A stretch of DNA of 64,000 nucleotides, taken from NCBI RefSeq assembly GCF_016597785.1, contig NZ_JAENJG010000001.1:1116001-1180000 (forward strand), given 5' to 3'. Shown here one piece after another: positions 7,191-60,968 of the stretch; the first letter of the stretch is position 1, and every line of letters starts with the position of its first letter. A program made the position numbers and the translations under genes. The notes beneath the pieces were generated by a model. It made no database searches. It was not told the DNA's origin and saw only the letters and a program-made list of their open reading frames with translations. Origin of the DNA: Leucobacter sp. L43. GTDB lineage: Bacteria > Actinomycetota > Actinomycetes > Actinomycetales > Microbacteriaceae.

Positions 7191-7487
7191 TTAGAGGACG
7201 AGTCCGACCACGTCGATGATCGCGATGATGACCACCGAACCCGCCACGCTGAACGAGACACGCGTGATGAACCCTTCGCGCTGCGCGGTGCCGAGCTGCA
7301 GTGCGAACGTCACGAGCGCTGAGACTCCCACCGCGAGCACGAGCCACGAGAAGCGTTCTTCTGGCGCGGTGAGCAGGGTGACGAGCGTGCCCATGACGGC
7401 CGCCGCCGCCCAAGCGAGGATCAGCCGCGGTACGTGCCAGGAGTGCGCATCGGGCATCTCCGCGGTCTCGGGGGGCATCTCGGTCAT
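7191..7487 (-). CDS. Small three-helix membrane protein
   Basis: Product of 98 residues with a short hydrophilic N-terminus and about three membrane helices (LILAWAAAAVMGTLVTLLT, FSWLVLAVGVSALVTFAL, VAGSVVIIAIIDVVGLVL). The start was placed at the ATG at 7487, where the hydrophilic head begins; a weak AAGAAT -10 box (7494-7499) is 6 nt upstream. A much longer in-frame extension upstream overlaps glnR on the other strand and is not credible. Divergent from glnR. No family recognised with certainty. Confidence 0.7.
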   Translation of the reverse strand: MTEMPPETAEMPDAHSWHVPRLILAWAAAAVMGTLVTLLTAPEERFSWLVLAVGVSALVTFALQLGTAQREGFITRVSFSVAGSVVIIAIIDVVGLVL

Positions 7488-7608
7488 TGCGCCATTCTTC
7501 CACACGCCGCGAAACAGCCCGGCGAGCTCGAAACACTCGCGAAACGGGGGCGAAACAGGCCGCACAGTACTATTTGGTGCAGGCCACGAGACGAGGAAGG
7601 ACGGGTAG

Positions 7609-44867: not shown

Positions 44868-45237
44868 CGAAATCATCCGCCACTCGTCGCAGCATCGTCG
44901 CGACCTTCCGCGACTGTGCGCGCTCCGGGTACTGCCCGTGCTTCAGGCGTTCGCCGAGACCATCGAGCAGTTTCACGAGATCTTCGATGATCACCGCCAT
45001 CTCGTCGGCCGACTTCCTGCTGCGCTTGGCGAGGCGCGGGGTGTCGAGGACATGCACCGACAGCGCCTGGGGGCCGCGTCGCCCGTCGGCGACGCTGTAC
45101 TCCAGACGTGTGCCCGCCTGGATCTCGGCATCCGCCGGCACGACCGAGGCGTGCAGGTACACCTGAGCGCCATCATCCCCCTGGATGAACCCGAAGCCCT
45201 TGTCTTCGTCGTAGAACCTGACCTTGCCGTTCGGCAT
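44860..45237 (-). CDS. Cold-shock-domain protein with C-terminal extension
   Basis: Nucleic-acid-binding protein of 125 residues. The cold-shock domain (about 1-65) has RNP1 KGFGFIQGDDG and RNP2-like VYLHASVV, and a further 60-residue helical extension (ADEMAVIIEDLVKLLDGLGE) not found in ordinary 67-residue cold-shock proteins. ATG 45237 with ribosome site AAAGGAACGAGG. Overlaps the DUF3027 gene at its end, a pair I recall from other Microbacteriaceae. It may act as an RNA chaperone. Confidence 0.88.
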   Translation of the reverse strand: MPNGKVRFYDEDKGFGFIQGDDGAQVYLHASVVPADAEIQAGTRLEYSVADGRRGPQALSVHVLDTPRLAKRSRKSADEMAVIIEDLVKLLDGLGERLKHGQYPERAQSRKVATMLRRVADDFDV

Positions 45238-45657: not shown

Positions 45658-47469
45658 ATGAGCGGCACACTCGCGCTCGCCTCCGCTCTCGCGGAGATGG
45701 ATCGCGACACTCTCGCTGCGCTCGTGCGCAGCCGGCGCCCGCACGCACCCGCGGGCATCACCGATCCCATCGGGCTCGCCTCCGATCTCCTGAAGACGGA
45801 GTCGATCGCGCGAGCTCTGGCTCCGCTCGATCGCGCGAGCCTCGCAGCGGTGCGCGATCCGACTGGCGCCGATGCCGCACTCGTCTCCGAGCTGTCCGGA
45901 ATGGGCCTGCTCGGTCGCGATGGCGGATCCGCCGTCAGTCTGCCCGAAGTCGCCGCTGCACTCAGCGACGCGCTCGACGCAGCGCACGTGGTGATCGACT
46001 CGCTCTCATCCGACCCCTTTCCTGGCGATATCAGCAGCGACGTCGACACCAGCGCCTGGTTCACCTCGGCGCTCACGGCCGTCGGGCAGGCCGCGGAGTG
46101 TCTGCGCACCCTGCGCGACCGCCCCGGCAAGTTGAACCGCTCGGGGAGCATCGCCGTCGCGACGGTCAAGCAGCTGGCGGAATCGACCGGGGTCGAACCC
46201 GACGAGGTGTCGCTCGCACTCGCCGCGCTCATGCGGGCGGGGCTGGTCACCGCGCTCACCGACGACCACCTGCTGATCACCGCCGCCGCCTCGAGCGCAT
46301 GGTTGCACAGCTCGCATGTCGAACGATGGCTCTCCCTCGCGCATGCCGCCGGTTGCAGCATGCCCTCGACGCTGCGCACCGAATGGAACCGAGCAGACCA
46401 GGCGGAGATCGATCTGCGCGCGCTCGCGGCAGGGGTGCCGACGCGGTACCCCCTGTTACCCGCGACCGATCTCACGGCGGTGGACGATTTCGTGCGCGGA
46501 GCCGAATACCTGGGCTTGACGGTCGAAGGGCGCTTCACGAAGGTTGCCGACGCACTCCTCGTCGGAGAAGTCGTCACCTCCGACATTGCGCGCGCAATGC
46601 CAGAGACGGCGACGGGCGTCTACGTGCAACCCGACCTGAGCGTGGTCGTACCCGGCCCGCTGCCGCCGAAGGACGAAGCGGTGCTCGCAGCGCTCGCTCG
46701 CCCCGAGCACATCGGCGTCGCCTCGACCCGGCGGATCAGCGAGGCGTCGATCGCCGAGGCGTACGAGCGGGGCCTCTCGCCGGCCACCGCACGGGAGGCG
46801 TTCACCCGCATCTCGCTCACGGGCATCCCTCAACCCCTCGAGTACCTGCTCGACTCGTTGGGCGAGCGCGTCGGCGGCATCGTCGTCGGCGAGTACGCGG
46901 GTGACGAGGGACGCACGCGCCTCTCCTTCGCGCGGGCGGACGTCGCCGCCACGATCTCCGTGGATCGTGCGCTGCAGCACCTCCAGCTGCAGCGCTCGCG
47001 CGCGTCCGACACGGTGCTGTACTCCCGCCTGAGTGCTGACCATGTGCTCGCCGCGCTCGCCGATGCCCGGTATCACGCGTCTTCGCAGGTGGCAGCACTG
47101 CGAGATGCAGAACCCGCGGAAGTCGGCGCCATCCAGGCTGGTGCGACCGCGTCCGAGGCGGCGGGAGCGACCGCGAGCCGGCGGGCGGGTGCTGGCGAGG
47201 GACCGACGGCCCCGTTCGACGCACTGGTCGAGCGCGTCTTCACCGCTGCGCGCTCCGAGCCGGGCACGGGTGACTTCACCAGGCGACTCGAGCTCGCGAT
47301 CCGCGACCGCAGCCCCGTGCGCGTGACGGCGGAGGCGCGCGGAGAGGTGCGCACGTTCACGTTGCTCCCGGTCTCGGTCAATGCCGGGCGTCTGCGCGCC
47401 GCGGATCAAGCAGCGGGTGTCGAACGCACGCTGCCCGTGAACATGATCACGGCCGTCGAACCGACCTGA
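45658..47469 (+). CDS. Helicase-associated protein (XPB/Ssl2 N-terminal-like domain)
   Basis: Protein of 603 residues similar to mycobacterial Rv0862c, which lies beside the XPB helicase gene there. Helical N-terminal modules (LASALAEMDRDTLAALVRSR) lead to the helicase-associated domain around 310-420, with TGVYVQPDLSVVVPGPLPPK and RISEASIAEAYERGLSPATA, and a C-terminal domain (LELAIRDRSPVRVTAEARGE). No ATPase motifs. It is thought to work with XPB in DNA repair or R-loop processing, but here the XPB gene is 11.8 kb away. ATG 45658 fits the conserved start. Confidence 0.8.
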   Translation: MSGTLALASALAEMDRDTLAALVRSRRPHAPAGITDPIGLASDLLKTESIARALAPLDRASLAAVRDPTGADAALVSELSGMGLLGRDGGSAVSLPEVAAALSDALDAAHVVIDSLSSDPFPGDISSDVDTSAWFTSALTAVGQAAECLRTLRDRPGKLNRSGSIAVATVKQLAESTGVEPDEVSLALAALMRAGLVTALTDDHLLITAAASSAWLHSSHVERWLSLAHAAGCSMPSTLRTEWNRADQAEIDLRALAAGVPTRYPLLPATDLTAVDDFVRGAEYLGLTVEGRFTKVADALLVGEVVTSDIARAMPETATGVYVQPDLSVVVPGPLPPKDEAVLAALARPEHIGVASTRRISEASIAEAYERGLSPATAREAFTRISLTGIPQPLEYLLDSLGERVGGIVVGEYAGDEGRTRLSFARADVAATISVDRALQHLQLQRSRASDTVLYSRLSADHVLAALADARYHASSQVAALRDAEPAEVGAIQAGATASEAAGATASRRAGAGEGPTAPFDALVERVFTAARSEPGTGDFTRRLELAIRDRSPVRVTAEARGEVRTFTLLPVSVNAGRLRAADQAAGVERTLPVNMITAVEPT

Positions 47470-47525: not shown

Positions 47526-49445
47526 TCAGATCACCCGATCGTTTCCCCCGTCCACGCTGATGACGGCTCCCGTCGTCGCGTTCATTCCCTGGCAGCAGCT
47601 CAGGACCGCGTCGGCCACCATGGCGCTGGTCACCTCCAGCTGGAGGAGATTCCGTGTGCGGTACTCCGCTTCGCTGAGCCCGTACTGCTCAGCGCGGGCT
47701 CGCAGCAGTTCCGGCGTCCATATCGCCGTGTCGAAGACGGCATCTGGAGCGACCTGATTCACGCGTATGCCGTCCTCGGCCCACTCGAGCGCCGCGACGC
47801 GCGCAAACTGCGCCGCGGCTGCCTTGCTCGCCGAGTACGCTGCCGCTCCCGGACCGGGCGCTGCGACGTTCTTGGTCGAGATGAGTACTGCGCGACCGCC
47901 CCGAGGTGCGGCAGCGAGAGCGGGGTGCGCGGCACGGAACAGGCGCGCAACAGCCGTGGCGTTGATCGCGAGCGCCCGATCCCACACCTCGTCTTGCAGC
48001 TGCGCTATCGGCGCGCTCGGCGGAAAGATGCCTGCTGCGGCGACCACGATGTCGATGCCTCCGAAATCCCGGCTCGCAAGTTCGACTGCCGAATCGATCA
48101 CTTCGGGGTCGCGCACGTCACCGCTCACGGCCCGCCAGGATTCATGCGACCCGTCGAGCTCCCATTCCTCCGCGATATCGATTCCAACGACCGACGCGCC
48201 CGAGGCGAGCAGCGCATTCGCGACAGCACGCCCGATTCCGGAGGCAGCACCGGTGACGAGCGCCACTTCACCGCTCAGTGGGAGGCGCCGTCGCTTCGCG
48301 AGCTTCGCCTGCTCGAGCGTCCAGTACTCGATGTCGAAGCTCTCGGACTCGGAGAGCGACTGAAATCCTCCCCGCCCGTCGGCCGCATCGACGACGTCCA
48401 TCGTATGGAGCACGATATCGCTGACGACGCTGACGTCCCGCGCGGTCTCACCGGCGGCCAGCAGTCCGAGTACCGGATCGAGGACGACGCGGGGGGCGGG
48501 GTCCAGCTCGGTCACCGAGCGCTCCGCACGATCCCGATGGCGGGAGAAGTACTCCCGATACGCAGCACTGTACGCGGCGACATCGCGCCCCACGAGGGGC
48601 GTGCGCTTCGTGTAGATGACGTGTTCCGGCGTCGCAGTCCCACGGGACGCGGCCTCCAAGAGATCCGGGCGACTGCAGAATGATGCGGCGCGCTCCGAGT
48701 CGATCTGCTGCAGGAGCAGCGGGCGTCCGGCAGCACGCGAGATGGCGCTGCGGAGCGAGACGACGTCGGCGACCGCGCCTGCGCGTCCGCGCCGCGATCC
48801 GCGTTCGCCCCAGCGGTCGACGCCGAGCGCGGCCGCTGCGCGGGCGACGAGTGAGCGGTGGCGTTCGAGGGCTGCGTCGGAGTCGTCCGCGAACGTGAAG
48901 AGCCCGTGCTTGCTCAGCACGATCGCGTCGATTCCGGTGAGGTCGCTGTCGGCGACGAGACGGGCGAGCTCGAACCCCGGCTTGACGTACGGCAGCACCA
49001 GCACGCCGTGGCCCAGTGCGGCGGCGACCTCCCCCTCCACGACGTCGCGATCGGTGAGCGCGACGATGGCGTCGGCATGCGAATGGAGGACGACTCGTGC
49101 GGGGAGGTGGGCGTGCAGCAGGGCTTCGATGGACGCCGTCGGGGAATCGGCGTCGAGTGCGGCCTGGCGCAGCTCATTCACCATCGAAGCATCATCGAGC
49201 ACCGGCAGTTGCAGCAGCTGGTGCAGGCGATCGCGGCGCAATCGTGCAAAGCCCGGCCCCTCGATGGTCGCAAGGTCCCAACCGCTGCCCTTGACCAGCA
49301 GCAGCTCGATCATCGCCCCAGTGACATCGGCTCCAACCGTCTTGATGGATGTGTTCCCTCCCCCGTGCAGCACGAACGCCGGGTCACTCCCCAATGCTCG
49401 GCTCACACGGACGATGTCGTCGAGATCACGTTGTTCCTCTGTCAT
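47526..49445 (-). CDS. Class II aldolase / short-chain dehydrogenase fusion
   Basis: Bifunctional enzyme of 639 residues. The N-terminal class II aldolase/adducin domain (about 1-210) has HGGGNTSIK and the zinc ligands HSHAD plus a later LSKHGLFTF; the C-terminal SDR domain (about 395-639) has VTGAASGIGRAVANALLASG and YSASKAA. The same fusion in other bacteria (YuxG/RhaEW type) cleaves rhamnulose-1-phosphate to DHAP plus lactaldehyde and oxidises an aldehyde or alcohol. The start at ATG 49445 overlaps the kinase stop (ATGA); longer frames run through the kinase gene. Last gene of the eight-gene operon. Its substrate would be a ketose-1-phosphate. Confidence 0.85.
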   Translation of the reverse strand: MTEEQRDLDDIVRVSRALGSDPAFVLHGGGNTSIKTVGADVTGAMIELLLVKGSGWDLATIEGPGFARLRRDRLHQLLQLPVLDDASMVNELRQAALDADSPTASIEALLHAHLPARVVLHSHADAIVALTDRDVVEGEVAAALGHGVLVLPYVKPGFELARLVADSDLTGIDAIVLSKHGLFTFADDSDAALERHRSLVARAAAALGVDRWGERGSRRGRAGAVADVVSLRSAISRAAGRPLLLQQIDSERAASFCSRPDLLEAASRGTATPEHVIYTKRTPLVGRDVAAYSAAYREYFSRHRDRAERSVTELDPAPRVVLDPVLGLLAAGETARDVSVVSDIVLHTMDVVDAADGRGGFQSLSESESFDIEYWTLEQAKLAKRRRLPLSGEVALVTGAASGIGRAVANALLASGASVVGIDIAEEWELDGSHESWRAVSGDVRDPEVIDSAVELASRDFGGIDIVVAAAGIFPPSAPIAQLQDEVWDRALAINATAVARLFRAAHPALAAAPRGGRAVLISTKNVAAPGPGAAAYSASKAAAAQFARVAALEWAEDGIRVNQVAPDAVFDTAIWTPELLRARAEQYGLSEAEYRTRNLLQLEVTSAMVADAVLSCCQGMNATTGAVISVDGGNDRVI

Positions 49446-50932
49446 GCTGCGGCCTCCCAGACCCCACTCATCGCCCGGAGCACCCGGTCGAACGTCTTGC
49501 CCTGCTGCTCGTAAGCGGAACGATCCGCGCCGGGGTGCACGACGAGGCGATGGTCGTGCTCGCTTCGCCAGCGATCCGGATCGACGCCGATCGCGCGCGC
49601 TGCGAGTTGGGCGACTCCACGCGCTCCGAGCTCCGTGTCGAGCTGACGGCGCATCGGCCTGCCGACGACATCGGCGAACATCTGAGCCCATCGCGGGTTC
49701 TTCGCTCCGCCTCCGGCGAGCGTCCACGGCCGCTCGGAGACGCTGGCCCCGCACCTGAGGACCTTCTCGAGCTGCACGCGGTGATACTGCGTGATGCCCT
49801 CGGCTACGGCTCGAGCGACATGGGGGAAGCCGTGGCTTCCTTTGCACCCGAGCAAGGTACCCGACGCTCCGAGATGCTCCGGCGCGCCGTGTACGAAGGG
49901 GAGGAAGAGAATGCCGTCGGCGAGCGCAGGCACCTCTCCCGCTGCGTCGAGCAACTCCCGTGGAGTCACCGGCGCAGCACTCCGCGCGCCCAGCAACTGC
50001 GCGGCCCATTCGACGCTCGCAGCGGAGGTAGGGGCGACCTCCATGGCGAGCATGTAGTCAGGATCGGGCAGCAAGGCGTTGATCGTGACATCGGGTGGCT
50101 CGCTCGTCGCGGGGACGACGACCGCGTTGATCGCCCAGGTGCCCACGATGACGGTGACGTCGCCCGGATCTGATGAGCCGGCTCCGATCGGGCTCGCAAC
50201 GCAGTCCATGCATCCGGCGACCACGGGAATTCCCTCCGGCAGACCGGTGATCTCGGCCGCCCGTGCCGTGACCGCTCCGACGACCTCGTCGGAGGGGCGA
50301 GGTTCGGGAAGCAGGCGCCAGAGCGAGGCGGGTAGTCCCAGCATGTCGAACACTGCGGGCTCGTAGACGCGGGAGCTCAGATTCACCAAACCGCAGCCCG
50401 ACGCGTCAGACAGGTCCGCACTCGGCGCGCCGGTGAGGGAGGCCGTGAGCCAGTCCTTGCAGCTGAAGGCCCACGCCGCACGTTCGAGCGACTCGGGTTC
50501 GTGCTCGTGCAACCAGCGCACCAGCACCCCCAGCTGCCCGGTCCAGGGTATCGACCCTGTGAGGCGACGACACTGTTCCACTTCATCGGAGTCGAGGCTG
50601 GCGACGATTCGTCCTGCCCGACTGTCGGTCGAAGCGATCGCCGCACGAACTGGGCGCAGATCGTCGTCAGCGAGATACAGGCCATTGCCGTGCCCCGTCG
50701 CGCCGACCGCCGCGACGCTCCACCCCGCTGCCGAGAGGTGGGCGTTCAACTGACGCAGCACGCCGGACACCACCTCCCATAGCGCCTCCATGTCGATCTC
50801 CTGGCGCTCGCGCGACACGGCGACCCTGGGGTTCGGGGCGGCGAAGGTGCAGATCTCATTCCCCGCATCGTCGAATGCCGCTGCTTTCGCCGTCGTCAAT
50901 CCGACATCGATACCCACTACGCAGATCTTCAT
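49442..50932 (-). CDS. FGGY-family sugar/polyol kinase (EryA/LyxK-like)
   Basis: ATP-dependent kinase of 496 residues. It has the two-domain FGGY plan: phosphate-1 loop GIDVGLTTAKAAAFDD, substrate region ATGHGNGLYLADDDL and STDSRA, central LPEGIPVVAGCMDCVASPIG, and adenosine loop LAGGGAKNPRWAQMFADVVG. The N-terminal half resembles L-xylulose and erythritol kinases more than the AI-2 kinase LsrK. Starts 15 nt after the FAD dehydrogenase and overlaps the aldolase gene by 4 nt. Predicted to phosphorylate a polyol or ketose brought in by the transporter of this operon. Confidence 0.85.
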   Translation of the reverse strand: MKICVVGIDVGLTTAKAAAFDDAGNEICTFAAPNPRVAVSRERQEIDMEALWEVVSGVLRQLNAHLSAAGWSVAAVGATGHGNGLYLADDDLRPVRAAIASTDSRAGRIVASLDSDEVEQCRRLTGSIPWTGQLGVLVRWLHEHEPESLERAAWAFSCKDWLTASLTGAPSADLSDASGCGLVNLSSRVYEPAVFDMLGLPASLWRLLPEPRPSDEVVGAVTARAAEITGLPEGIPVVAGCMDCVASPIGAGSSDPGDVTVIVGTWAINAVVVPATSEPPDVTINALLPDPDYMLAMEVAPTSAASVEWAAQLLGARSAAPVTPRELLDAAGEVPALADGILFLPFVHGAPEHLGASGTLLGCKGSHGFPHVARAVAEGITQYHRVQLEKVLRCGASVSERPWTLAGGGAKNPRWAQMFADVVGRPMRRQLDTELGARGVAQLAARAIGVDPDRWRSEHDHRLVVHPGADRSAYEQQGKTFDRVLRAMSGVWEAAA

Positions 50933-50947
50933 TGACCCGACCGCTTC

Positions 50948-52603
50948 CTACTCGACGTGTTCTCTGCTGGGCGCGCCCAGGCGTCTGCCTCGCGGGGAGA
51001 ACCGCTGCATTGACCGAAGATAGTCGTCCAGTTCGCGAGCGGCTCGTTCCGGCGCCCAACCTGCGTGTTCGACGAGCACCTCGGCGGCCGCGCCAGCGGC
51101 GCCCATGCCGACATCCGCATTCAGTGCGATCGTGGTGCGGCGCAGGAGCACATCCTCCAATGTGAATGCGCCTTCCTCCTGTACCGCATAGACGACCTCC
51201 GCTGCGATGGCGCCGCTCAATGGGTCGATGCATCGTGCGAGTACCGGATCGGCCTCTGCGATTGCGGCCACCTCCCACGCCATTGCCCCGTAGACATCGG
51301 TGAGGCGTGCAATCGCCGTCGCGGGGAGCGCGGTGCGCGCAGTCAGCCCTGCCCGGAGGCGCTCCGCGCCGTTCGGAGGGACTCCGGGGAGCATGGCCGT
51401 CTTGGTGCCGGACGGACGGTGGCGCATGCCGAACGCCGATTCGACGCGGCGCAGCACCTGCTCCCCGAGCGCCCGATGCGTGGTGTACTTCCCGCCGATC
51501 ACACTCATCAGCCCTCGCGCCGAACCGTCGTGCACGGTGACGTCGCTGTCTCGGGTGACCGAGGCCGGGTCCGCCGTCCCTCCGGAGAACGGAAGCGGAC
51601 GGACACCGGAGTACGACCAGAGCACGTCGGCGGGGCTGAGCTCCGCGTCGGGGATCAGCGTATTGACGGCGCGCAGCAGGTAATCGATCTCATCGTCGTC
51701 GACGACGATGTCATCGAGGTCGCCGGAGAACGGCAGGTCGGTGGTGCCGATCATGAACTTTCCGTCGCGCCATGGCAGTACGAACATGGGCCGCTGGTCG
51801 TCCGGTGACTCGAAGAAGATGCACGTCTGCGGCGCAGCGGGAAAGCGATCCACCACGAGGTGGCTCCCCTTGGTCGGCCCGATGCGTCGCTGGTGATTCC
51901 CCTCCAACGCCAGCACATCGTCGACCCACGGCCCGGCGCAGTTGATGACGAGCGGAGCACTCAGCTGCCGCTCCTGCGAAGTCTCACGGTCTCGATAGAC
52001 GACCCCGGCGATTTCGTCTTTCCCGTGCAGCAACGACAGGACGGGGGTGTGGGTGAGGATCACCGCTCCGTGCCGGTAGGCGTCGATCGCGAGTTCGACC
52101 GCGAATCGCTCGGTGACGGGCACATGCGCGTCCTGGAAGAGTCCGCCCCACCGCACACCGCCTGCCGCGACTGTCGGCCAGTCGCGGCGCATTCGCTTGG
52201 AGAGGACGATCCGGTTCGGCGGCAGCCGCTTGCCCACTGAGAGGACATCGTGCAGTATCAAGCCGCACGACAGCAGCCATCCCGGTCGCGATGCCCCCCG
52301 TGAGAACGGGATGAGCATCGGGTAGGGGTGCACCAGGTGCGGGGCGGTGCGGAGCAGAATGTTCCGTTCGCGAATCGATTCGAATACCAGAGGAATCTCG
52401 AGTCGCTCGAGATACTTGAGACCGCCGTGAATGAGTCGCGTTGAGATCGCGGACGTGCGGGCCGCGATGTCGTCCTGATCGATCATGACGACTCGGAGAC
52501 CGCGGCGAGCGATCTCCCGGGTGATGGCGAGACCGTTGATACCGGCTCCGACGACGACGACATCGGCGGCGGCGGGTGCGGCGGAGCTTCGGAGGACGGG
52601 CAT
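50948..52603 (-). CDS. GlpD/EryB-like FAD-dependent polyol-phosphate dehydrogenase
   Basis: Membrane-associated flavoenzyme of 551 residues of the glycerol-3-phosphate dehydrogenase family. FAD motif DVVVVGAGINGLAITREIAR near residue 15, followed by TSAISTRLIHGGLKYLE, GPTKGSHLVVDRFP, YSGVRPLPF and VIGGKYTTHRALGEQVLR, all GlpD hallmarks, with a C-terminal helical domain. Beside an EryA-like kinase, it probably oxidises a phosphorylated polyol at the carbon next to the phosphoester to a ketose phosphate, as EryB does with erythritol phosphate. ATG 52603, ribosome site AAAGGGA. Confidence 0.85.
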   Translation of the reverse strand: MPVLRSSAAPAAADVVVVGAGINGLAITREIARRGLRVVMIDQDDIAARTSAISTRLIHGGLKYLERLEIPLVFESIRERNILLRTAPHLVHPYPMLIPFSRGASRPGWLLSCGLILHDVLSVGKRLPPNRIVLSKRMRRDWPTVAAGGVRWGGLFQDAHVPVTERFAVELAIDAYRHGAVILTHTPVLSLLHGKDEIAGVVYRDRETSQERQLSAPLVINCAGPWVDDVLALEGNHQRRIGPTKGSHLVVDRFPAAPQTCIFFESPDDQRPMFVLPWRDGKFMIGTTDLPFSGDLDDIVVDDDEIDYLLRAVNTLIPDAELSPADVLWSYSGVRPLPFSGGTADPASVTRDSDVTVHDGSARGLMSVIGGKYTTHRALGEQVLRRVESAFGMRHRPSGTKTAMLPGVPPNGAERLRAGLTARTALPATAIARLTDVYGAMAWEVAAIAEADPVLARCIDPLSGAIAAEVVYAVQEEGAFTLEDVLLRRTTIALNADVGMGAAGAAAEVLVEHAGWAPERAARELDDYLRSMQRFSPRGRRLGAPSREHVE

Positions 52604-52649
52604 GAGTTCCCTTTCGCGGTTCCCAGCGCTGAGCGCTCGGGAACCGGTG

Positions 52650-53522
52650 TCAGTGTGCGAGTGTCTGGAAGAGTTCGAATGCCTCGGCGTCGGTCATCCC
52701 GTCGTGCACGACGCCGCGCACCGCTGAGAGCATCGCGGCGGGATGCTCGGACTGGAAGACGTTGCGGCCCATGTCGACGCCGGCGGCGCCCTCCTGCATT
52801 GCGCGGTAGGCGATGCGCAGCGCCTCCTGCTCCTCGACCTTCTTGCCACCGGCGATGACGATGGGAACCGGGCATGCGCTCGTGATCGTCTCGAAGCCCT
52901 CCTCGACGTAGTAGGTCTTCACGAATGCGGCGCCGAGTTCGGCGGCGATCCGGGTCGAGAGTCTGAAGTAGCGCGCATCTCGCACCATGTCTCGGCCGAC
53001 CGCGGTCACGGCGAGCACCGGTATCCCCGTCGCCTGTCCCTGGTCCACGAGCGTCGTGAGATTCTTGATGGACTGCGTCTCGTGCTCTCCACCGACGAAC
53101 ACCTGCACGGCGAGCGCGGCTGCATCCAGCCTGACAGCGTCATCGATGGACACCGCGATCTGTTCGTCCGACAGATCTTTGAGCACGCTCGGGCCGCCCG
53201 AAGCGCGGAGCACCACGCCCTTTCCGCTCTCCGCCGGGATCGTCGTCCGCAAGGCTCCGCGCGTGCACATCAGGGCGTCGGCCTGCGGCACGAGAGGCAG
53301 GATGGAACGGTCGAGACGTTCCAAACCCGATGTCGGGCCCTGGAAGTACCCGTGGTCGAACGCCAGCATGACGGTTTTGCCGTCCCTCGGATCGAACACC
53401 CGGGAGAGGCGGGCCCGCATTCCCCAGTCCTGCCCGGCCAGGCCCTTGAGATGGAAGCCCGCCGGGACCGGAGCGCCCGCCGAGTAGTCAGTGCCTTCGC
53501 GGAGGTCGTCGAGATCAGCCAT
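52650..53522 (-). CDS. LsrF-like class I aldolase/thiolase
   Basis: Protein of 290 residues, nearly the length of E. coli LsrF and strikingly like it: [10 protein letters not shown] start, [40 protein letters not shown] and [14 protein letters not shown]. The Schiff-base lysine is Lys202 in [11 protein letters not shown]. LsrF splits 3-hydroxy-5-phosphonooxypentane-2,4-dione with CoA into acetyl-CoA and DHAP at the end of autoinducer-2 breakdown. Here it sits after an LsrB/A/C/D-like transporter but without LsrG, LsrK or LsrR. ATG 53522 overlaps the permease gene by 8 nt; ribosome site AAGGAG. Confidence 0.88.
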
Positions 53523-54657
53523 GGAGTTTCTCCTTCTGTGGTGAATGGTCGGTCGTGTCAGCAACGAGATCGCGCTCGGAGCCGGAATGGGTGGTATCAG
53601 CAGGGACGGAGAGGGGTTCCGCGGATCGGTTGCCCGAGAGACTCGCCGCGAACCGTCGTGTCGTCGAGCGGGCGGTTCCTGTCGCGGTCGAAGCGATCAC
53701 GACGACCAGTACGACGAGTACCCCCTTGAGCACGTTCTGGGCACCGACGGACCAGCCGACGAGGTTGAGCAGCCCGGAGAGCAGCACGAAGAACAGTGCT
53801 CCGGTCCAGGTGCCGATGACCACGGGCCGACCGCCGGCGATGAGCGTGCCGCCGATCACGACGACGGCGATCGAGTCGAGCATGTACGAGGTGCCGAGTA
53901 CGGTGCTCGGTGAGATGAACGCCGCGAGGAGTCCGCCGACGGTGCCCGCGAGGCCGGCACTCAGCAGATACGCCGCCGCGGTGACGAGACGCGCGGGCAA
54001 CCCGGCGCGTTCAGCGGCACGGGCGCTCTGCCCGACGGCGATCACCGAGAGACCGAGGCGTGTGCGGCGCAGCAGAAACCAGATGAATGCGGAGAAGCCG
54101 ACGACGATCATGGCGAGTACCGGCACTCCGAGCGCCTTCGCGTTGACGAACGCGCGCAGCGATGCATCGGCGCCGCCCCTGGCCGCGTCCGCGAGGAGCA
54201 GGGTCGCGCTCGTCACGATCAAGCTGGTCGCCAGCGTCGCGATGATCGGCGGGACTCGCAGCAGTAGGATCGCGATGACGCTGACCGCACCGGCCGCGAT
54301 CCCGGCAGCACCGGCGGCCGCGACTCCCGCGAGCGGTCCGGCTGTCGCACCGATCGCCACGGACACGTAGGAACTCATCGAGATGATCGTTCCGACCGAG
54401 ACGTCGATGTTGCCCGGTCCGAGCGTGATCACGAGCATCTGCCCGAGCGCCACGAGCACGAGGAACGGGGCGAGGGAGAGCGCCTGCATCATCGGATCGA
54501 GCGGCGCTCCCGGTCGCACGCTCATGATGATCCCCCAGACCACGAGCACTCCGATGAGCGACCATCCCCAGGCGGGCCATCGGAGCACCGGGCTCTTGCG
54601 CTCACCAGCGGTTGCAGTGCCGGTCGCAGGGACGCGTCGGGTCAGGCGCAGATTCAT
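53515..54657 (-). CDS. Sugar ABC transporter permease (RbsC/LsrD type)
   Basis: Membrane subunit of 380 residues, with about eight to ten helices and the RbsC-family motifs [39 protein letters not shown] and the ATPase-contact loop [20 protein letters not shown] 50-residue Ser/Thr/Arg-rich cytoplasmic tail is unusual for the family. The start at ATG 54657 overlaps the first permease's stop (ATGA). Pairs with the preceding permease to form a hetero-dimeric channel, as in LsrCD. Confidence 0.88.
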
Positions 54658-55625
54658 CGGGCGAGCCTCTCCGTGATGATGCGGCCGGCGAGCACGGCGA
54701 GCACGATGGCTCCCTGAGCCGCCGACTGCAGGCTGGAAGGAAGATTGATCAGACTGAGCAGCACGGTGATCATTCCGAGGGTGATGGCGCCGAGCGTGGT
54801 GCCGATGGGGAGCGCTCGGCCTCCCGAGAACGATCCCCCGCCCAGAATCACTGCCGCGATCGTCATGAGCGTGAACTCGCTGGCCGCGTTGATGTCGCCT
54901 GACCACGTTTGCGAGGCGAGCAGCAGGCCGGCGAACACCATCATCACGGCGGCGAGCACATAGGCGAGCACGCGTGTAGCGACCAGGGAGACGCCGGCCT
55001 TCTCGAGGGTCGCCGCCTGGGATCCGAGGGCTCGGATCCGCGTTCCGAACTTCGCGCGCCGGGTGAGCACCCAGCCGAGCAGCGTCGCCACGACGATGAA
55101 TAGCACGGGCGCGGGTATCCAGCTCGGCCGCCACTGGGAGAGCGCGGCGAGCCATCCCGGAGTGGTGCCGCCCGGCGTCGGGCTGAGGGAGAGACCGATG
55201 CCGAGCCACACGAACGACATGCCGAGTGTGACGATGATCGACGGCACGCCCCGACGCTGCACGACAGCGGCGATCACGGCGTAGACCGCGAAGACGGCGA
55301 GCACCGAGAGCACCGCGAGCACCGGATGCTCGGTCAGCAATCTCGCGGCGATGACGGTGACGAGACCGACGAGGTATCCGACGCCCAGATCGATGTCACC
55401 GACACTCATGATGATCATCTGGGCCTGGGCCGCGAAGACGAGCGGCACCGACGACATGAGCGTCAGCGTGAGGCCGGGCACGCTGAGTACGCCGGGTTGC
55501 AGCACCACGGTGAGAATGAAGATGCCGACGAGGGCAACGAGGGCGAGCAGCGCCGGCGACCCGTTCCTGGCGCCCGCGCGCAGCCGTTCCTTGCTCGATG
55601 GCACGAGTACCGTCGTCTGAGTCAT
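54654..55625 (-). CDS. Sugar ABC transporter permease (RbsC/LsrC type)
   Basis: Membrane subunit of 323 residues: IIMSVGDIDLGVGYLVGLV is the RbsC-family signature, RRGVPSIIVTLGMSFVWLGI the core helix region, and ALGSQAATLEKAGVSLVAT the ATPase-contact loop. ATG overlaps the ATPase stop by 4 nt, and its own stop overlaps the next permease start by 4 nt, so the two channel halves are made together. Confidence 0.88.
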   Translation of the reverse strand: MTQTTVLVPSSKERLRAGARNGSPALLALVALVGIFILTVVLQPGVLSVPGLTLTLMSSVPLVFAAQAQMIIMSVGDIDLGVGYLVGLVTVIAARLLTEHPVLAVLSVLAVFAVYAVIAAVVQRRGVPSIIVTLGMSFVWLGIGLSLSPTPGGTTPGWLAALSQWRPSWIPAPVLFIVVATLLGWVLTRRAKFGTRIRALGSQAATLEKAGVSLVATRVLAYVLAAVMMVFAGLLLASQTWSGDINAASEFTLMTIAAVILGGGSFSGGRALPIGTTLGAITLGMITVLLSLINLPSSLQSAAQGAIVLAVLAGRIITERLAR

Positions 55626-57115
55626 CTCTGCTCCTCTGAGCTGCGGGGATCTGCACCGAAGGAATCGGCGATGATGCGTTCCTCGGTGATCTCGGTGTCC
55701 GTGATCTCGCTGACGATCGCGCCCGACCGGAAGACGTAGACCCGATCGCAGTGGGCCATCTCACCGTTCTCCGTCGAATACCAGACGATCGAGCGTCCGC
55801 GGGAAGCTTCCACTCTCATGAGCGCATAGAGCTCGTTCTTCGTCTTGACGTCGACTCCGCGGAACGGGTCATCGAGGAGCACGAGCGGTGCATCGCTCGC
55901 AAAGGCTCGTGCGACCAGCACCTTTTGCTGATTGCCGCCGGACAGCGCGGTGATCGAAGCGCGGGAGCCGCCCTTCACGTGCAGCCGCTGCACCCAGTCC
56001 TCTGCGACGGACTTCCGCTCAGCGGCTGAGATCACGCCGAATGTCGAGAGTTCGCGAGTGGCCGATATCGTCACGTTCTCGGCCACAGACCACAGCGGGA
56101 AGACTCCGCTCGACTGCCGATCTCCGGGGACATAGGCGCGGCGCGCTGCGACGGCGATGCCCCGCCCTCCCGACCACAGGCGGTGGAGCAGGCGCTCCTG
56201 CCCATGCCCGGCGAGACCGGCGAGACCGACGATCTCGCCGCTGGCGACGGAGAACGGAAGCTCGAACGCTTGGGTGGCAGCAACTTCCCGGCGAGTGAAA
56301 GCACCACCGGAGTCGGCGTCTTCGATCCGGTGCATCGTCGCCGTGTCGGCTCGTACCTCGCCGCCCATCGCGACGAGCAGCCGTTCTTCGCTGGTGTCGC
56401 CCGTCTCGACGATCTCGACGACGCGGCCGTCGCGCATCACGGCGATGCGATCGGTGTGCTCCAGAACCTCCTGCATTCGGTGGGAGATGAGCACCATCCC
56501 CACTCCTCGCGCCGCAAGCTCGCGCAAAGCGCGGTACATCTGCCTGGTCGCATCGAGGCTCAGTGATTCGGTCGGCTCGTCGAGGATGAGCAGGGTGAGA
56601 TTGGGCGTGCAGAGCGCGCGCGCGATCTCCACCATCTGGCGTTGCGGCATGGGAAGGTCGCCGGCGAGCCGCATGATGTTGATCCCGTGATCGGGGAACA
56701 CGTGGTCGAGGGTCTCGACGAGCACGCGCTCCGCTCGGGCACGCCAGCGCAAGCCCGTCGCGGTCGGGCTCGAGAGAGCGATGTTCTCACTGATCGTGAG
56801 GTCGGGGCACAGTGCGAGTTCTTGGTACACCATGCGCACTCCATTGCGCTCCGCAGTCCGCTGATTCCACGGACCTCCCCCGTGCCAGTCGATCTGCCCG
56901 GCATCGGCGGCCTCACGCCCGGCGAGGGCGCGCATGAGCGTGCTCTTGCCCGCTCCGTTGTGGCCGACCAGGCCGAGAATCTCGCCCGCGGCGACGGAGA
57001 CATCGACGCTGCTGAGTGCGTGGGTGCTGCCGTAGCGCTTGGAGAGGCCAGTCGCTTTCACGAGCGTCTTCCCGTACGCCGGGACTGGTCTGGCCGTCTG
57101 CTGGAGCATGGTCAC
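55622..57115 (-). CDS. Sugar ABC transporter ATPase, duplicated (RbsA/LsrA type)
   Basis: Tandem ATPase of 497 residues energising import. First half: Walker A GHNGAGKSTLMRAL, Walker B LLILDEPTESL and switch ISHRM; the signature reads LPMPQRQMVEIARAL, a common variant of LSGGQ. Second half: degenerate Walker A region (VGLAGLAGHGQERLLHRLWS), intact signature ALSGGNQQKVLVARAF and LLDDPFRGVDVKTKNEL. This asymmetry is normal for RbsA. GTG 57115 has a GGAGG site 8 nt upstream and is preferred to ATG 57109. Confidence 0.9.
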   Translation of the reverse strand: MTMLQQTARPVPAYGKTLVKATGLSKRYGSTHALSSVDVSVAAGEILGLVGHNGAGKSTLMRALAGREAADAGQIDWHGGGPWNQRTAERNGVRMVYQELALCPDLTISENIALSSPTATGLRWRARAERVLVETLDHVFPDHGINIMRLAGDLPMPQRQMVEIARALCTPNLTLLILDEPTESLSLDATRQMYRALRELAARGVGMVLISHRMQEVLEHTDRIAVMRDGRVVEIVETGDTSEERLLVAMGGEVRADTATMHRIEDADSGGAFTRREVAATQAFELPFSVASGEIVGLAGLAGHGQERLLHRLWSGGRGIAVAARRAYVPGDRQSSGVFPLWSVAENVTISATRELSTFGVISAAERKSVAEDWVQRLHVKGGSRASITALSGGNQQKVLVARAFASDAPLVLLDDPFRGVDVKTKNELYALMRVEASRGRSIVWYSTENGEMAHCDRVYVFRSGAIVSEITDTEITEERIIADSFGADPRSSEEQR

Positions 57116-57149
57116 CGGTCTCGCCTCCGTCCAGCTCGATCTTCGGCGC

Positions 57150-58238
57150 TCATGGCAGGGCCGGAGCTTCCGCAGGTTCTCCGGCCAGCAGTGCCGTGAT
57201 CGCCGCACCGGTCGACTCCTCGTCCCAGGCATTCGCCGCGTATTCATCGGCGGAGAGGGCGTCGACCCAGTAGTCGAGGTTGTCCTGCGTCACCTGCACC
57301 AACGGCAGCACGACGTCTTCAGGGACTTCCTCACCGCGCTCCTTTGCGAGCGCGACGTACATCGCGGCGACGACCTGACCGGGATCCGTGAGGGCGGCGA
57401 AGGATCCGTTGTCGATGCCCCGTTCCTTCCAGAACGACAGCGATTTGCCATCGGTGTCGAAGACCACGACGGGCGCCTCGCGTCCGGCTGATTCGAAGGC
57501 CTGCACGACACCCATTCCGCCGATGCATCCCGGCACTGCAGCGATATCCGGCATCGACCCCAGGATCCCCACGATCTCCTTCTGCGCGGTCGCCGAATCG
57601 CAGAATCCGTTGACCTCTGCGGCGACCTCGACGTCGGGGTACTCCGCGAGGATCTCCATCTGCCGCTCGTGGAACTGCTCTTCTGGCTGCGATCCGATCA
57701 CGCCTCGGTTGACGATGATGTCGCCTGCTCCGTCGATCGCTTCGAGCGCCGGCATCAACGAGTCCTCGCCCCACTGTCCGTAGTCGTTGCGCACGACGAC
57801 ACCGCAGCTCGTGTCCATGTCGGCGTCGAGGATGACGACGTTGATCCCCGCCGAGCACGCCTCCTCGATGACCGGGACCAAGGCGGTCGACGATGCGGGG
57901 ATCACCATGAGCACGTCGGGGTTCTGCAGCATGAGGCTGCGAATCTGCGACGCCTGCTCGGTGGCGCTGTTCTCGCCGGGTGCGTTGACCACCGAGTACT
58001 CCGACACCACACCGGTGGTCTTGAGCTTCTCTGCTTCGGATTCGAATTTGTCGATGAGCGTGAGGCGCCATCCGTTGACGAACCCGTTCGACAGTGCGAC
58101 GCTGAGTCCTTCAGGTTCGGCGCCATCACCGTTCTGATCTTCCGCGGCTCCTGGGCCCGCGCACCCTGAGAGCGCGAGTGCGGTGGCGACGAGTGCGGTG
58201 AATACACCGACGTGCCGGCGTCTGGTTGTGAACTTCAT
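57150..58238 (-). CDS. Sugar ABC transporter binding lipoprotein (RbsB/LsrB-like)
   Basis: Lipoprotein of 362 residues that captures the operon's substrate outside the cell. Signal peptide with lipobox LSGC (Cys26), then a periplasmic-binding-protein fold of the RbsB class: LSNGFVNGWRLTLIDKFESE, QIRSLMLQNPDVLMVIPASS, AGINVVILDADMDTSC and VVVFDTDG. ATG 58238 with ribosome site AGGAGA. First gene of the eight-gene operon; a GntR operator lies 97-120 nt upstream. Similar rhizobial proteins bind polyols and sugars, so the ligand cannot be fixed. Confidence 0.88.
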   Translation of the reverse strand: MKFTTRRRHVGVFTALVATALALSGCAGPGAAEDQNGDGAEPEGLSVALSNGFVNGWRLTLIDKFESEAEKLKTTGVVSEYSVVNAPGENSATEQASQIRSLMLQNPDVLMVIPASSTALVPVIEEACSAGINVVILDADMDTSCGVVVRNDYGQWGEDSLMPALEAIDGAGDIIVNRGVIGSQPEEQFHERQMEILAEYPDVEVAAEVNGFCDSATAQKEIVGILGSMPDIAAVPGCIGGMGVVQAFESAGREAPVVVFDTDGKSLSFWKERGIDNGSFAALTDPGQVVAAMYVALAKERGEEVPEDVVLPLVQVTQDNLDYWVDALSADEYAANAWDEESTGAAITALLAGEPAEAPALP

Positions 58239-58334
58239 TGTCTGTGTCTCCTGTTTCGCTTCGTTGCGATCGCGTCGGTTCTACCGCGACTCCCGGCACC
58301 TCGGATGGCTCGCGCCATCCGCAATGTGGTCGTA

Positions 58335-58358
58335 ACCAACTCGTAATGACAAGTTGGT
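58335..58358. promoter_or_regulatory. Inverted repeat in the gntR/operon gap (candidate GntR operator)
   Basis: ACCAACT (58335-58341) and AGTTGGT (58352-58358), 10 nt apart. It overlaps a possible operon promoter on the minus strand (TTGTCA, 18 nt, CACATT). A plus-strand TAGATT box (58365-58370) for gntR is next to it. Confidence 0.55.
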
Positions 58359-58453
58359 AGTGATTAGATTACGGAGGCGCCCGGAAGCTGTCAACTCCGC
58401 CGAGATCAGACCAGACGGTACGCTCGAAGAACCCGACCATCCAGAGGAGTCCC

Positions 58454-59203
58454 ATGCAGCAGCGGCCACGCTTCACGGCGCTCGATCGCTCCGCCGACGC
58501 GCCGCTCTGGCAACAGCTCTCGCGCAGACTCCGCGACGAGATCGAGTCGGGGCGTCTCCTGCCCGATCAGGCGCTTCCCTCTGAGAACGAGCTCATCGAT
58601 CGCTACCTGGTCTCGCGCACGGTCGTGCGAGAGGCGCTCGCCGACCTCGTGCGCGCAGGGCTCATCTACAAGGTGCGCGCCCGGGGATCCTTCGTCGCCC
58701 CGCGCCGCCCCGACCTGAAGTTCATCGGTTCGATGACCGGCTCCTCCGCCGACCTGGAGGCGACCGGCCGCCTCATCACCACCAAAGTCATCGATTCCCG
58801 AACCGCTGCGGCGAGCGCCGCCGAGGCCGATGCTCTGCGCATCTCCGAAGGCGACCGGGTGCTCCGACTGCGTCGCATCCGATTGGTCGACACGACGCCG
58901 TGGCTGCTCGTCGACACCACGCTGCCCCTGGATCGCTTCCCCAATCTCGCCCGCGCCAACTTGGAGAACCAATCACTCTACGACCATCTTCGACGTCACT
59001 TCGGCGTACACCCGAACGGCGCTGATCGATGGATCGCCGCCGTCGTCCCGAATGACACCGATGCGGAACTCCTCCAGTTGCCGCCGGGCGAACCCGTGCT
59101 GTCGATCGAATCGATCGCCTGGGACGCGGAAGGCGAGCCTTTCGAGCATTACCGCGCACTGCACCGCAGTGACGAGACCCGCTTCTACGTGGGTATCCGC
59201 TAG
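58454..59203 (+). CDS. GntR/HutC-family regulator of the divergent catabolic operon
   Basis: Transcription factor of 249 residues. The GntR winged helix spans about 15-80 (LWQQLSRRLRDEIESGRLLP; LPSENELIDRYLVSRTVVRE; ADLVRAGLIYKVRARGSFVA), and residues 95-245 form a UTRA-type ligand domain of the HutC subfamily. Such regulators usually repress their operon until a sugar phosphate binds. ATG 58454 follows GGAGTCCC. Divergent from the eight-gene operon, with an inverted repeat between. Confidence 0.88.
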   Translation: MQQRPRFTALDRSADAPLWQQLSRRLRDEIESGRLLPDQALPSENELIDRYLVSRTVVREALADLVRAGLIYKVRARGSFVAPRRPDLKFIGSMTGSSADLEATGRLITTKVIDSRTAAASAAEADALRISEGDRVLRLRRIRLVDTTPWLLVDTTLPLDRFPNLARANLENQSLYDHLRRHFGVHPNGADRWIAAVVPNDTDAELLQLPPGEPVLSIESIAWDAEGEPFEHYRALHRSDETRFYVGIR

Positions 59204-59267: not shown

Positions 59268-60968
59268 ATGACTCTCGGCCCCCTCATCGTGCAGAGCGAC
59301 CACACCGTACTCCTCGAAGTCGCCCATCCCGATGCCGAAGACGCGCGGCACGCGCTCGCGGTCTTCGCCGAGCTGGAGCGCGCCCCGGAGCACATCCACA
59401 CCTACCGGGTCACCCGGCTCGGGCTGTGGAATGCGCGGGCAGCCGGGCACTCGTCCGACGAGATCCTCGAGACGCTGAACCAGTACGCCAAGTTCCCGGT
59501 GCCGAGCGGTGTCGCCAACGAGATCGCCGACACGATGCGCCGCTATGGGCGACTCACGATCGAGCGCGCGAAGGTCGCGGGCGACGCCGCGGAGACTCCC
59601 GCGGGCGATGCGGCAGCGGCTGCCGTCGAGGAGGCGGCACCCGCGCAACTCGTGCTCCGTTCGGAGGATCCGATGGTGCTCCGCGAGGTCGCGAGCGCCA
59701 AGAAGATCGCCCCGCTCCTCGGCAACCGCATCGACGAGCACACGTTCCCGGTGGAGGCGTGGGCGCGCGGAGAGCTGAAGCAGCAGCTGGTCGCCCGAGG
59801 ATGGCCGGCGGAGGATCTCGCCGGCTACCGCCCCGGTGAGCCCTACAACATCTCGCTGGCAGAGGACGGCTGGCAGTTGCGCGACTACCAGGCGAAGGCG
59901 GTCGAGGCCTTCCAGCGCGGGGGTTCGGGCGTCGTGGTGCTGCCCTGCGGGGCGGGCAAGACGATCGTCGGCGCGGCGTCGATGGCGGCGGTCGGCGCGA
60001 AGACGCTGATCCTGGTCACGAATGCGGTATCGGCGCGGCAGTGGCGGGACGAGCTGCTGCGTCGCACCACGCTCACCGAGGATGAGATCGGCGAGTACTC
60101 GGGGCAGGTGAAAGAGGTGAAGCCCGTCACCATCGCGACGTACCAGATCCTCACGAGCCGCAGGAAAGGCGAGTACGCGCATCTGTCCCTGCTCGACGCG
60201 GAGGACTGGGGCGTCATCGTCTACGACGAGGTGCATCTGCTGCCCGCGCCGGTCTTCAAGCTCACCGCGGATCTGCAAGCGCGCCGCCGTCTCGGGCTCA
60301 CTGCGACGCTCGTGCGCGAGGACGGCCGCGAGGGCGATGTGTTCAGCCTGATCGGCCCCAAGCGGTATGACGCCGCCTGGAAGGACATCGAGGCGCAGGG
60401 GTTCATCGCGCCTGCGGAGTGCTTCGAGGTGCGCGTCGACTTCGGCGAGGCGGAGCGCATGGACTACGCGGTGGCCGAGGATCAGGATCGCTACCGCATC
60501 GCGTCTAGCGCGCTCATCAAGCAGCCCGTTGCGCGCCGCATCATCGACCGTCATCCCGGCGAGAGCGTGCTCGTGATCGGGCAGTACATCGATCAGCTCG
60601 AGTCGATGTCGGAGGCGCTCGGCGCACCCCTGATCACCGGGCAGACTCCCGTCGATGAGCGAGCACGCCTGTTCCAGGCCTTCCGCGACGGGGAGGAGAA
60701 GATCCTCGTCGTGTCGAAGGTCGCGAACTTCTCGGTGGATCTCCCCGATGCCTCGGTCGCGATTCAGATCTCGGGATCGTTCGGTTCCCGCCAGGAGGAG
60801 GCGCAGCGCTTGGGGCGTCTGCTGCGCCCCAAGGCGAACGGGGCCACGGCGTCGTTCTACACGCTGATCACCCGTGACACCGTCGATCAGGATTTCGCGC
60901 AGAACCGCCAGCGGTTCCTGGCTGAGCAGGGGTACGCGTACACGATTCTCGACGCAGATCAGCTGTGA
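59268..60968 (+). CDS. DNA repair helicase XPB (prokaryotic type)
   Basis: SF2 3'-5' DNA helicase of 566 residues. The N-terminal damage-recognition-like part (about 1-190) precedes RecA domains with Walker A LPCGAGKT, DEVH box (VIVYDEVHLLP), GLTATLVREDGREG including the RED motif, and the second-domain QRLGRLLRPK. An Ala-rich insertion (about 105-125) is not conserved. ATG 59268 follows TAGACT by 8 nt, probably leaderless; a frame from 58830 runs through gntR and is rejected. In mycobacteria its neighbour is the helicase-associated gene now at 45.7 kb. Confidence 0.93.
   Translation: MTLGPLIVQSDHTVLLEVAHPDAEDARHALAVFAELERAPEHIHTYRVTRLGLWNARAAGHSSDEILETLNQYAKFPVPSGVANEIADTMRRYGRLTIERAKVAGDAAETPAGDAAAAAVEEAAPAQLVLRSEDPMVLREVASAKKIAPLLGNRIDEHTFPVEAWARGELKQQLVARGWPAEDLAGYRPGEPYNISLAEDGWQLRDYQAKAVEAFQRGGSGVVVLPCGAGKTIVGAASMAAVGAKTLILVTNAVSARQWRDELLRRTTLTEDEIGEYSGQVKEVKPVTIATYQILTSRRKGEYAHLSLLDAEDWGVIVYDEVHLLPAPVFKLTADLQARRRLGLTATLVREDGREGDVFSLIGPKRYDAAWKDIEAQGFIAPAECFEVRVDFGEAERMDYAVAEDQDRYRIASSALIKQPVARRIIDRHPGESVLVIGQYIDQLESMSEALGAPLITGQTPVDERARLFQAFRDGEEKILVVSKVANFSVDLPDASVAIQISGSFGSRQEEAQRLGRLLRPKANGATASFYTLITRDTVDQDFAQNRQRFLAEQGYAYTILDADQL

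Follow-up and report, generated by a model that had tools for sequence, protein, structure and literature searches.

Several described catabolic systems resemble the locus analyzed here, an eight-gene operon with a divergent GntR-type regulator gene in a 64,000-nucleotide stretch of DNA from Leucobacter sp. L43 (contig NZ_JAENJG010000001.1, positions 1,116,001 to 1,180,000; "the window", to which all coordinates refer unless stated otherwise). In autoinducer-2 (AI-2) processing, as encoded by the enterobacterial Lsr operon, LsrK and LsrG make 3-hydroxy-5-phosphooxypentane-2,4-dione. The products of LsrF in E. coli are dihydroxyacetone phosphate (DHAP) and acetyl-CoA (PMC7828210). The DHAP shunt, or 5-deoxyribose salvage, consists of MtnK/DrdK, MtnA/DrdI and the class II aldolase Ald2/DrdA; through MtnK and MtnA, 5-deoxyribose or methylthioribose becomes the corresponding ribulose-1-phosphate (PMC6079011, PMC12632272), and neither of these papers uses the term LsrF in its main text. 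RhaEW of rhamnose catabolism joins an aldolase and a dehydrogenase in one two-domain protein, and the rhizobial erythritol operon pairs an FGGY kinase (EryA) with a GlpD-type dehydrogenase (EryB).

We propose, with a probability of roughly one half and on the strength of sequence comparison, that the window operon encodes a catabolic pathway ending in LsrF, in which a phospho-2,4-diketone formed by a GlpD-like enzyme is thiolysed by LsrF. A solute-binding protein (SBP) and an ATP-binding cassette (ABC) importer would bring in a small deoxy-ketose or deoxy-polyol, an FGGY kinase would, to judge from its family, phosphorylate the terminal hydroxyl, and the GlpD-like flavoprotein, from its family and conserved residues, would turn the carbon next to the phosphomethyl group into a ketone. 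With a 1-deoxypentulose such as 1-deoxyxylulose, phosphorylation at C5 and GlpD oxidation at C4 would give 3-hydroxy-5-phosphooxypentane-2,4-dione, and GlpD would stand in for LsrG. With an alditol, the second ketone would be made by the short-chain dehydrogenase/reductase (SDR) half of an aldolase/SDR fusion protein that is also encoded in the operon. LsrF and CoA would then convert the phospho-2,4-diketone to DHAP and acetyl-CoA or another acyl-CoA, by analogy with E. coli LsrF. The best reading of the substrate is a deoxy-pentulose or deoxy-pentitol. The pathway would thus share with the Lsr operon its probable products, DHAP and acyl-CoA, and its logic of import, phosphorylation, conversion and thiolysis. 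An earlier note on this DNA, made from the sequence alone, had offered two routes from the ketose-1-phosphate, direct cleavage by the aldolase domain or oxidation to the 2,4-dione followed by LsrF thiolysis; it is the second that fits the comparative evidence.

The LsrF-family protein (52650-53522, minus strand, 290 aa) scored 466.6 bits against NCBIfam model NF006081 (cut-off 297), whose name contains 3-hydroxy-5-phosphooxypentane-2,4-dione, and is identical to E. coli LsrF at 171 of 290 aligned residues. Its closest solved relatives are the E. coli LsrF structures PDB 3gkf and 3glc (E ~1e-114). Lys202 aligns with E. coli Lys203 and is a lysine in all 118 LsrF loci compared (a set of 122 in which 4 were merged as identical proteins; L235-L244 and L256 lie outside it). 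The catalytic Lys203, the ligand residues His58, Asp251 and Arg254, and Tyr205, positions taken from the LsrF structure paper (PMC2728841), are likewise the same in the window protein as in each of the 118 loci, whatever their gene context. By these sequence measures the protein belongs to the true LsrF family and is a predicted thiolase; the earlier note had called it very close to LsrF, with Lys202 conserved. That note had also named grouping with ordinary DhnA aldolases as a result that would refute it; the model score, the structures and the residues all point elsewhere, and we rejected the DhnA alternative because the NF006081 cut-off is passed and the LsrF active-site residues are kept.

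Downstream of lsrF lie genes encoding a GlpD-like FAD dehydrogenase (50948-52603, minus strand, 551 aa) and an FGGY carbohydrate kinase (49442-50932, minus strand, 496 aa; Pfam FGGY_N/C). The dehydrogenase scored 354.7 bits against NF008899, close to the cut-off of 360, and is 34% identical to E. coli GlpD and 37-38% identical to incomplete genes taken for EryB, which adjoin the presumed EryA genes described below. It conserves E. coli GlpD positions H50, Y55, H233, R317, R332 and K354, which we take to be key functional sites. A second GlpD relative in this genome, 31-43% identical, is encoded outside the operon. For the kinase, the best NCBIfam model was XylB (196.5 bits, below its cut-off of 380), while the LsrK model gave 139.5 bits (cut-off 528; 27% identity to LsrK). 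Two rhizobial kinases, annotated only as FGGY kinase and taken by us for EryA from gene order, share 27-28% identity with it. In a kinase tree of 12 rows the window protein joined the Thermobispora-type and Microbispora kinases (support 100) and then that of Sagittula (85), apart from LsrK and from the presumed rhizobial EryA, which falls in another FGGY clade. As a family statement, the description of this kinase as EryA/LyxK-like in the earlier note is not supported by the comparison with these presumed EryA proteins, and we dropped it. The best kinase matches in a plasmid collection (36%) came from Rhizobium plasmid loci L246 and L247, where a second FGGY kinase is found with GlpD, ABC genes and DeoR. 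These loci share the kinase-GlpD pair; unlike the window operon they show no LsrF in the stretch, and at L246 genes for a class II FBP-aldolase and an isomerase follow on the other strand.

The eight adjoining minus-strand genes span 47526-58238, with the GntR gene divergent, and the overlaps and short gaps that the earlier note reported are present: read from the fusion gene to the SBP gene, the seven junctions are a 4-bp overlap, a 15-bp gap, a 46-bp gap, an 8-bp overlap, two 4-bp overlaps and a 40-bp gap. The arrangement is more than chance, because other genomes from the family show all nine genes with the order unchanged. Among 398 genomes of this family (Microbacteriaceae), 17 contained LsrF at E 1e-60 or better and 12, the window's own included, carried the operon with an LsrF at least 76% identical (one of the 12, L114, breaks off within the fusion gene at the end of its contig, and in another, L120, the fusion matches in two pieces). 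No LsrF match was obtained in the 9 listed genomes of the same genus. A scan of genome contigs supplied 80 LsrF loci, the best 80 of 292 with a relative.

Comparison with Microbispora's order separates the operon into a core and an addition. Three Microbispora loci (L008, L010, L012) contain the same genes in the same order without the fusion. Together with ten fetched regions (L235-L244), all 13 loci examined there have the core GntR-SBP-ATPase-permease-permease-LsrF-GlpD-kinase and lack the fusion; the SBP is carried by 20 of 297 genomes of the order, and 13 of these 20 loci were examined. Neither the fusion nor its SDR half gave a match of at least 60 bits in L235-L244. At a threshold of E 1e-30, a search of the three Microbispora genomes gave no fusion at any place in two of them; the single copy in the third groups with the rhamnose-type copy of the window genome (see below). 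Since the fusion is absent from 13 of 13 loci, kinase, GlpD and LsrF are the constant enzymes of the system in these gene sets, and the fusion is an add-on in the window's family and not a core member. The fusion reported by the earlier note is therefore present in the window, although it is not part of the conserved core. In Microbispora's order the substrate would already have the second ketone, or an unlinked enzyme would supply it. Two further loci combine the same enzymes differently. In Shinella the order is DeoR, lsrF, fusion, SBP, ATPase, permease, FGGY kinase, GlpD; in Sagittula (L101) it is SBP, ATPase, permease, SorC-type regulator, GlpD, FGGY kinase, lsrF and a protein with the aldolase half only. 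In the kinase tree the Shinella protein falls with kinases of Rhizobium (support 98) whose surrounding stretch shows no LsrF, and from this grouping the Shinella kinase-GlpD pair looks to have been recruited on its own.

A survey of LsrF neighborhoods places these loci in a wider setting. The 118 loci were chosen by similarity to the window LsrF, with fetched regions, and do not form a census. No LsrK-like kinase was found within ~9 kb in 73 of them. The fusion or one of its halves lay within ~9 kb at 53 of these 73, compared to 2 of the 45 loci with LsrK. By type, the 73 included 43 loci with the fusion, 7 with the SDR half and 5 labelled as aldolase half, although 2 of these 5 were also labelled fusion and 1 is truncated where its contig stops; at 25 of the 73, the available sequence breaks off less than 6 kb from lsrF. 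Across the whole survey six loci had an aldolase-half label. L023 and L120 among them were also labelled fusion and L114 is the one cut by the contig end, so that real aldolase-half-only loci beside LsrF are L009 (Mycobacterium), L101 (Sagittula) and L127. An SDR half alone neighbors LsrF at L021, L026, L037, L038, L041, L048, L059 and L128, and the stand-alone SDRs of L048, L059 and L128, the three that were scanned, had their best scores against fusion models. We dropped the idea that LsrF is always accompanied by the SDR half in view of the aldolase-half-only loci and of the Microbispora-order core, which has neither half; on these gene contents neither half is indispensable beside LsrF.

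Some loci also had further genes near LsrF. At ten loci from Planctomycetes and others (L020, L025, L029, L034, L037, L038, L041, L048, L065 and L194), a gene for an Rpe/LsrE-like epimerase separates LsrF from the SDR or fusion; in nine alphaproteobacterial lsr operons (L184-L186 and L188-L193) such a gene follows lsrG. The Mycobacterium sp. 236 locus (L009, 1613-5934) has LsrF-GlpD-GntR near an aldolase-domain gene whose SDR part was unmatched, together with genes that we named by eye as hexulose-6-phosphate-synthase-like, PfkB-like kinase and phosphotriesterase-like.

In an LsrF tree of 93 of the 118 rows (25 of the 45 LsrK-type loci were left out), the minimum number of changes on starred branches was 3 for the FGGY+GlpD context (actinobacteria, Shinella and Sagittula), 4 for MtnA and 3 for DhaK, counts in which gain and loss are indistinguishable. 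The window LsrF joined L195, L126, L127 and L124 (support 85, not starred). The LsrF and the fusion of Shinella are nested among alphaproteobacterial loci with DhaK and DhaL, LsrF and the fusion, as would be expected if the DhaKL and the FGGY+GlpD kinase modules deliver the same kind of ketulose-1-phosphate. One of the window's neighbors in this tree, L127, comes from another genome of the same family (G086) and contains an lsrACDB-R-K-F operon that gave no match to LsrG; lsrK and lsrF are separated by a small cupin-domain gene, and lsrF is followed by a gene for an aldolase-half protein (genes at 7301-8458, 8548-9432 and 9481-9885 of that locus). The cupin may stand in for LsrG there.

The link to the DHAP shunt comes from loci that join MtnA, and once MtnK too, to the fusion and LsrF. 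At L017 MtnA, fusion and LsrF are side by side; L030 and L023 both start inside MtnA, with one other gene between fusion and LsrF at L030 and four at L023, where the fusion match is in two pieces. The actinobacterial locus L195 has MtnK (397 bits, cut-off 275), MtnA (381 bits, cut-off 279) and ABC genes on one strand, with a divergent GntR, fusion and LsrF; its GntR and SBP were named by eye. Reasoning from the known reactions of these enzymes, the fusion and LsrF of L195 would receive 5-deoxypentulose-1-phosphate, and on paper oxidation of 5-deoxyribulose-1-phosphate at C4 gives 3-hydroxy-5-phosphooxypentane-2,4-dione. The window operon and the DHAP shunt would meet at this same predicted node. 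They differ in that neither MtnK nor MtnA was matched near the window operon (one MtnA relative is found elsewhere in the genome) and in that the end product would be acetyl-CoA, not acetaldehyde. Clusters in Paracoccus (L202) and on a Shinella plasmid (L203) combine MtnK-MtnA, ABC importer genes and the fusion, with no LsrF in the stretch, and are possibly a further variant of the DHAP shunt.

The class II aldolase/SDR fusion of the window (47526-49445, minus strand, 639 aa; Pfam Aldolase_II and adh_short) has the architecture of RhaEW. It did not reach the cut-off of NF006196 (PRK08324.2-4; 757.1 bits against 831), which the related L195 protein passed with 892, nor that of TIGR02632 (RhaEW; 386.4 bits against 567.75). 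L195 and L126 form the sister of its clade in the fusion tree (support 99). The SDR motifs TGxxxGIG and YxxxK are present, as are the Glu/His motifs of the aldolase half, which we take to be its metal site. One possibility is that this protein acts aldolase-first, in the manner of RhaEW: kinase and GlpD would give a ketulose-1-phosphate, the aldolase half would cleave it to DHAP and an aldehyde, the SDR half would oxidize the aldehyde, and LsrF would have a side or salvage role. Coupled assays showed both activities for RhaEW of Chloroflexus in vitro (PMC3870299), the putative metal-site residues of the window fusion are intact, and the MtnK-MtnA-fusion clusters L202 and L203 manage without LsrF. 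On the other hand, the conserved core keeps LsrF and not the fusion at every Microbispora-order locus examined, two of the three Microbispora genomes have no fusion at all at the threshold used, and SDRs of the fusion type without an aldolase half adjoin LsrF; we consider this order of events unlikely, though it is the strongest of the alternatives. Without NAD+, RhaEW formed neither DHAP nor lactate, from which its authors inferred that the dehydrogenase is needed for the aldolase (PMC3870299). Oxidation before cleavage would explain this requirement too, and if oxidation does precede cleavage, LsrF would be a thiolytic replacement of the cleavage step.

A second possibility, somewhat less probable still, is that LsrF is a plain class I aldolase acting on a ketose-1-phosphate from a tetritol or pentitol, in a variant of the erythritol pathway. 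An FGGY kinase with GlpD is the logic of erythritol catabolism, and after 4pe6 (see below) the next-best folds for the window SBP are the M. smegmatis carbohydrate-binding proteins 4rs3, 5hko and 4rsm, which presumably bind polyols. LsrF itself has the class I aldolase fold and was originally proposed to be such an aldolase (PMC2728841). Against this, the protein clears the cut-off of the thiolase equivalog and has all the E. coli active-site residues that were checked, the kinase has only 27-28% identity to presumed EryA, and the operon contains no EryC-type isomerase. No operon gene was assigned to the EryC or EryD families by NCBIfam or Pfam, which agrees with the earlier note for the operon genes; LsrG, EryC and EryD were not sought genome-wide.

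It could also be supposed that the operon is an AI-2 uptake and quenching system with replaced parts, given that it contains LsrF and an importer of the same broad superfamily and that the nearest LsrF outgroup includes L127 with its lsrACDB-R-K operon. The importer consists of a two-domain sugar-type ABC ATPase (55622-57109, minus strand), two CUT2-like sugar permeases (53515-54657 and 54654-55625, minus strand; both Pfam BPD_transp_2) and an SBP that is a probable lipoprotein (57150-58238, minus strand). The ATPase had AraG as its best NCBIfam model (298.8 bits, below the cut-off of 689), and every subunit fell far below its Lsr cut-off (LsrA 265 against 586, LsrC 67 against 388, LsrD 70 against 500, LsrB 22 against 384), so that the Lsr-like transporter of the earlier note is not supported as a family statement. 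Kinase, importer, SBP and regulator all miss the Lsr cut-offs, and neither GlpD nor the fusion has a known role in AI-2 processing. A tblastn search at E 1e-8, with the best match per place kept, matched neither LsrR nor LsrG in the 18 kb surrounding the operon, nor any kinase or SBP there beyond the operon's own; the absence of LsrG, LsrK and LsrR noted earlier is borne out for this region. Three SorC-type regulators elsewhere in the genome are at best 32% identical to LsrR. On account of the SBP, the kinase, the regulator and the missing LsrG we rejected this explanation, which we regard as very improbable.

Least probable of all is that the operon serves a common sugar, for example L-rhamnose or L-fucose, which the homology of the fusion to RhaEW might suggest: the TIGR02632 cut-off is missed, no operon gene belongs to an aldose isomerase family (NCBIfam, Pfam), and a separate locus elsewhere in the same genome has its own fusion, far off in the fusion tree (branch 1.42), with a rhamnulokinase-like kinase (377 bits, below its own cut-off of 528) and an L-lactate-dehydrogenase-like gene. 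Because of this separate rhamnose-type operon we rejected the rhamnose pathway, and the objection foreseen in the earlier note, that a common sugar might explain the operon, is weakened.

The SBP and the regulatory region tie the window to a solved protein and a conserved site. The structure 4pe6 from Thermobispora bispora is the SBP of an operon of the same type: its chain is a 100% match to genome G1156, and the region around its gene (L235) reads GntR-SBP-ATPase-permease-permease-LsrF-GlpD-kinase. A search of structures and literature found no named ligand for 4pe6. The divergent GntR/UTRA regulator gene (58454-59203, plus strand; Pfam GntR and UTRA) is kept in place in relatives. Between it and the SBP gene lies a conserved palindromic, operator-like site (58332-58361) with the core AACTTGTCATTACGAGTT at 58338-58355. 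A pattern taken from the site itself would match 0.03 times in shuffled sequence at up to 3 mismatches. In 15 other loci of the family the best 24-mer matched the palindrome consensus, which was drawn from these same loci, at 16-23 of 24 positions, compared to 14-16 in 20 shuffles. GntR is predicted to control the operon from this palindrome.

Several observations count against a pathway through GlpD and LsrF. GlpD usually acts on L-configured glycerol 3-phosphate, and 1-deoxyxylulose 5-phosphate is D-configured, a mismatch. In L235-L244 an alditol substrate would leave the second ketone without an explanation, and 16 of the 73 LsrF loci that lack LsrK show no gene from among the partners searched for. 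The aldolase-half-only neighbors of LsrF mean that the SDR half is no constant partner, and with the putative metal site of the window fusion intact, direct cleavage to DHAP and an aldehyde is possible. The trees were made by a quick method with SH-aLRT support only, and the three context changes may include losses, which are inseparable from gains. We found no activity, ligand or growth data for these proteins. Compared with the rhizobial erythritol operon, the window operon shares the FGGY kinase and GlpD-type dehydrogenase but has LsrF and no member of the EryC or EryD family; compared with RhaEW, its fusion belongs to a separate, distant clade. The operon is a combination of ordinary parts for which we found no published description: a literature search, with most subscription journals outside its coverage, returned no account of LsrF in such an operon.

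The operon is flanked by a helicase-domain gene and an XPB-like helicase gene (45658-47469 and 59277-60968), both with Helicase_C_3. Such genes adjoin in many actinobacteria, and the position between them would then be an insertion site. With the window as positive control, neither helicase gene was found within a few kb of flank at 23 further loci from the family, of which 18 contain the operon and some come from the same genome, and therefore the operon lies at other places there. It is a cassette that moves or is lost often. Elsewhere in the window, 44181-44876 encodes a DUF3027 protein with a long low-complexity Asp/Ser-Asp tail. Just past the window (L257, G000:C1:1180001-1199500) are an FGGY kinase, two SorC-type regulators, an SBP, ABC genes and SDR relatives, all with weak matches.

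In genome annotation LsrF bears an AI-2 processing name. These data suggest a wider job for it, turning deoxy-sugars or polyols into acetyl-CoA and a glycolysis intermediate. More tentatively, LsrF may generally act as a thiolase on phospho-2,4-diketones derived from sugars, the AI-2 product among them, and be served by interchangeable front ends: LsrK and LsrG for AI-2, FGGY kinase and GlpD for a deoxy-ketose or polyol as in the window, DhaKL and an SDR for a ketose, and MtnK, MtnA and an SDR for 5-deoxyribose or methylthioribose. There would then be a DHAP shunt that yields acetyl-CoA without acetaldehyde, and many "AI-2 degradation" genes would be unrelated to quorum sensing. If this is true, deoxy-sugar and 5'-deoxynucleoside salvage would gain a new end, the solved binding protein 4pe6 would gain a role, the NAD+ dependence of RhaEW would be offered an explanation, and many LsrF annotations would be corrected.

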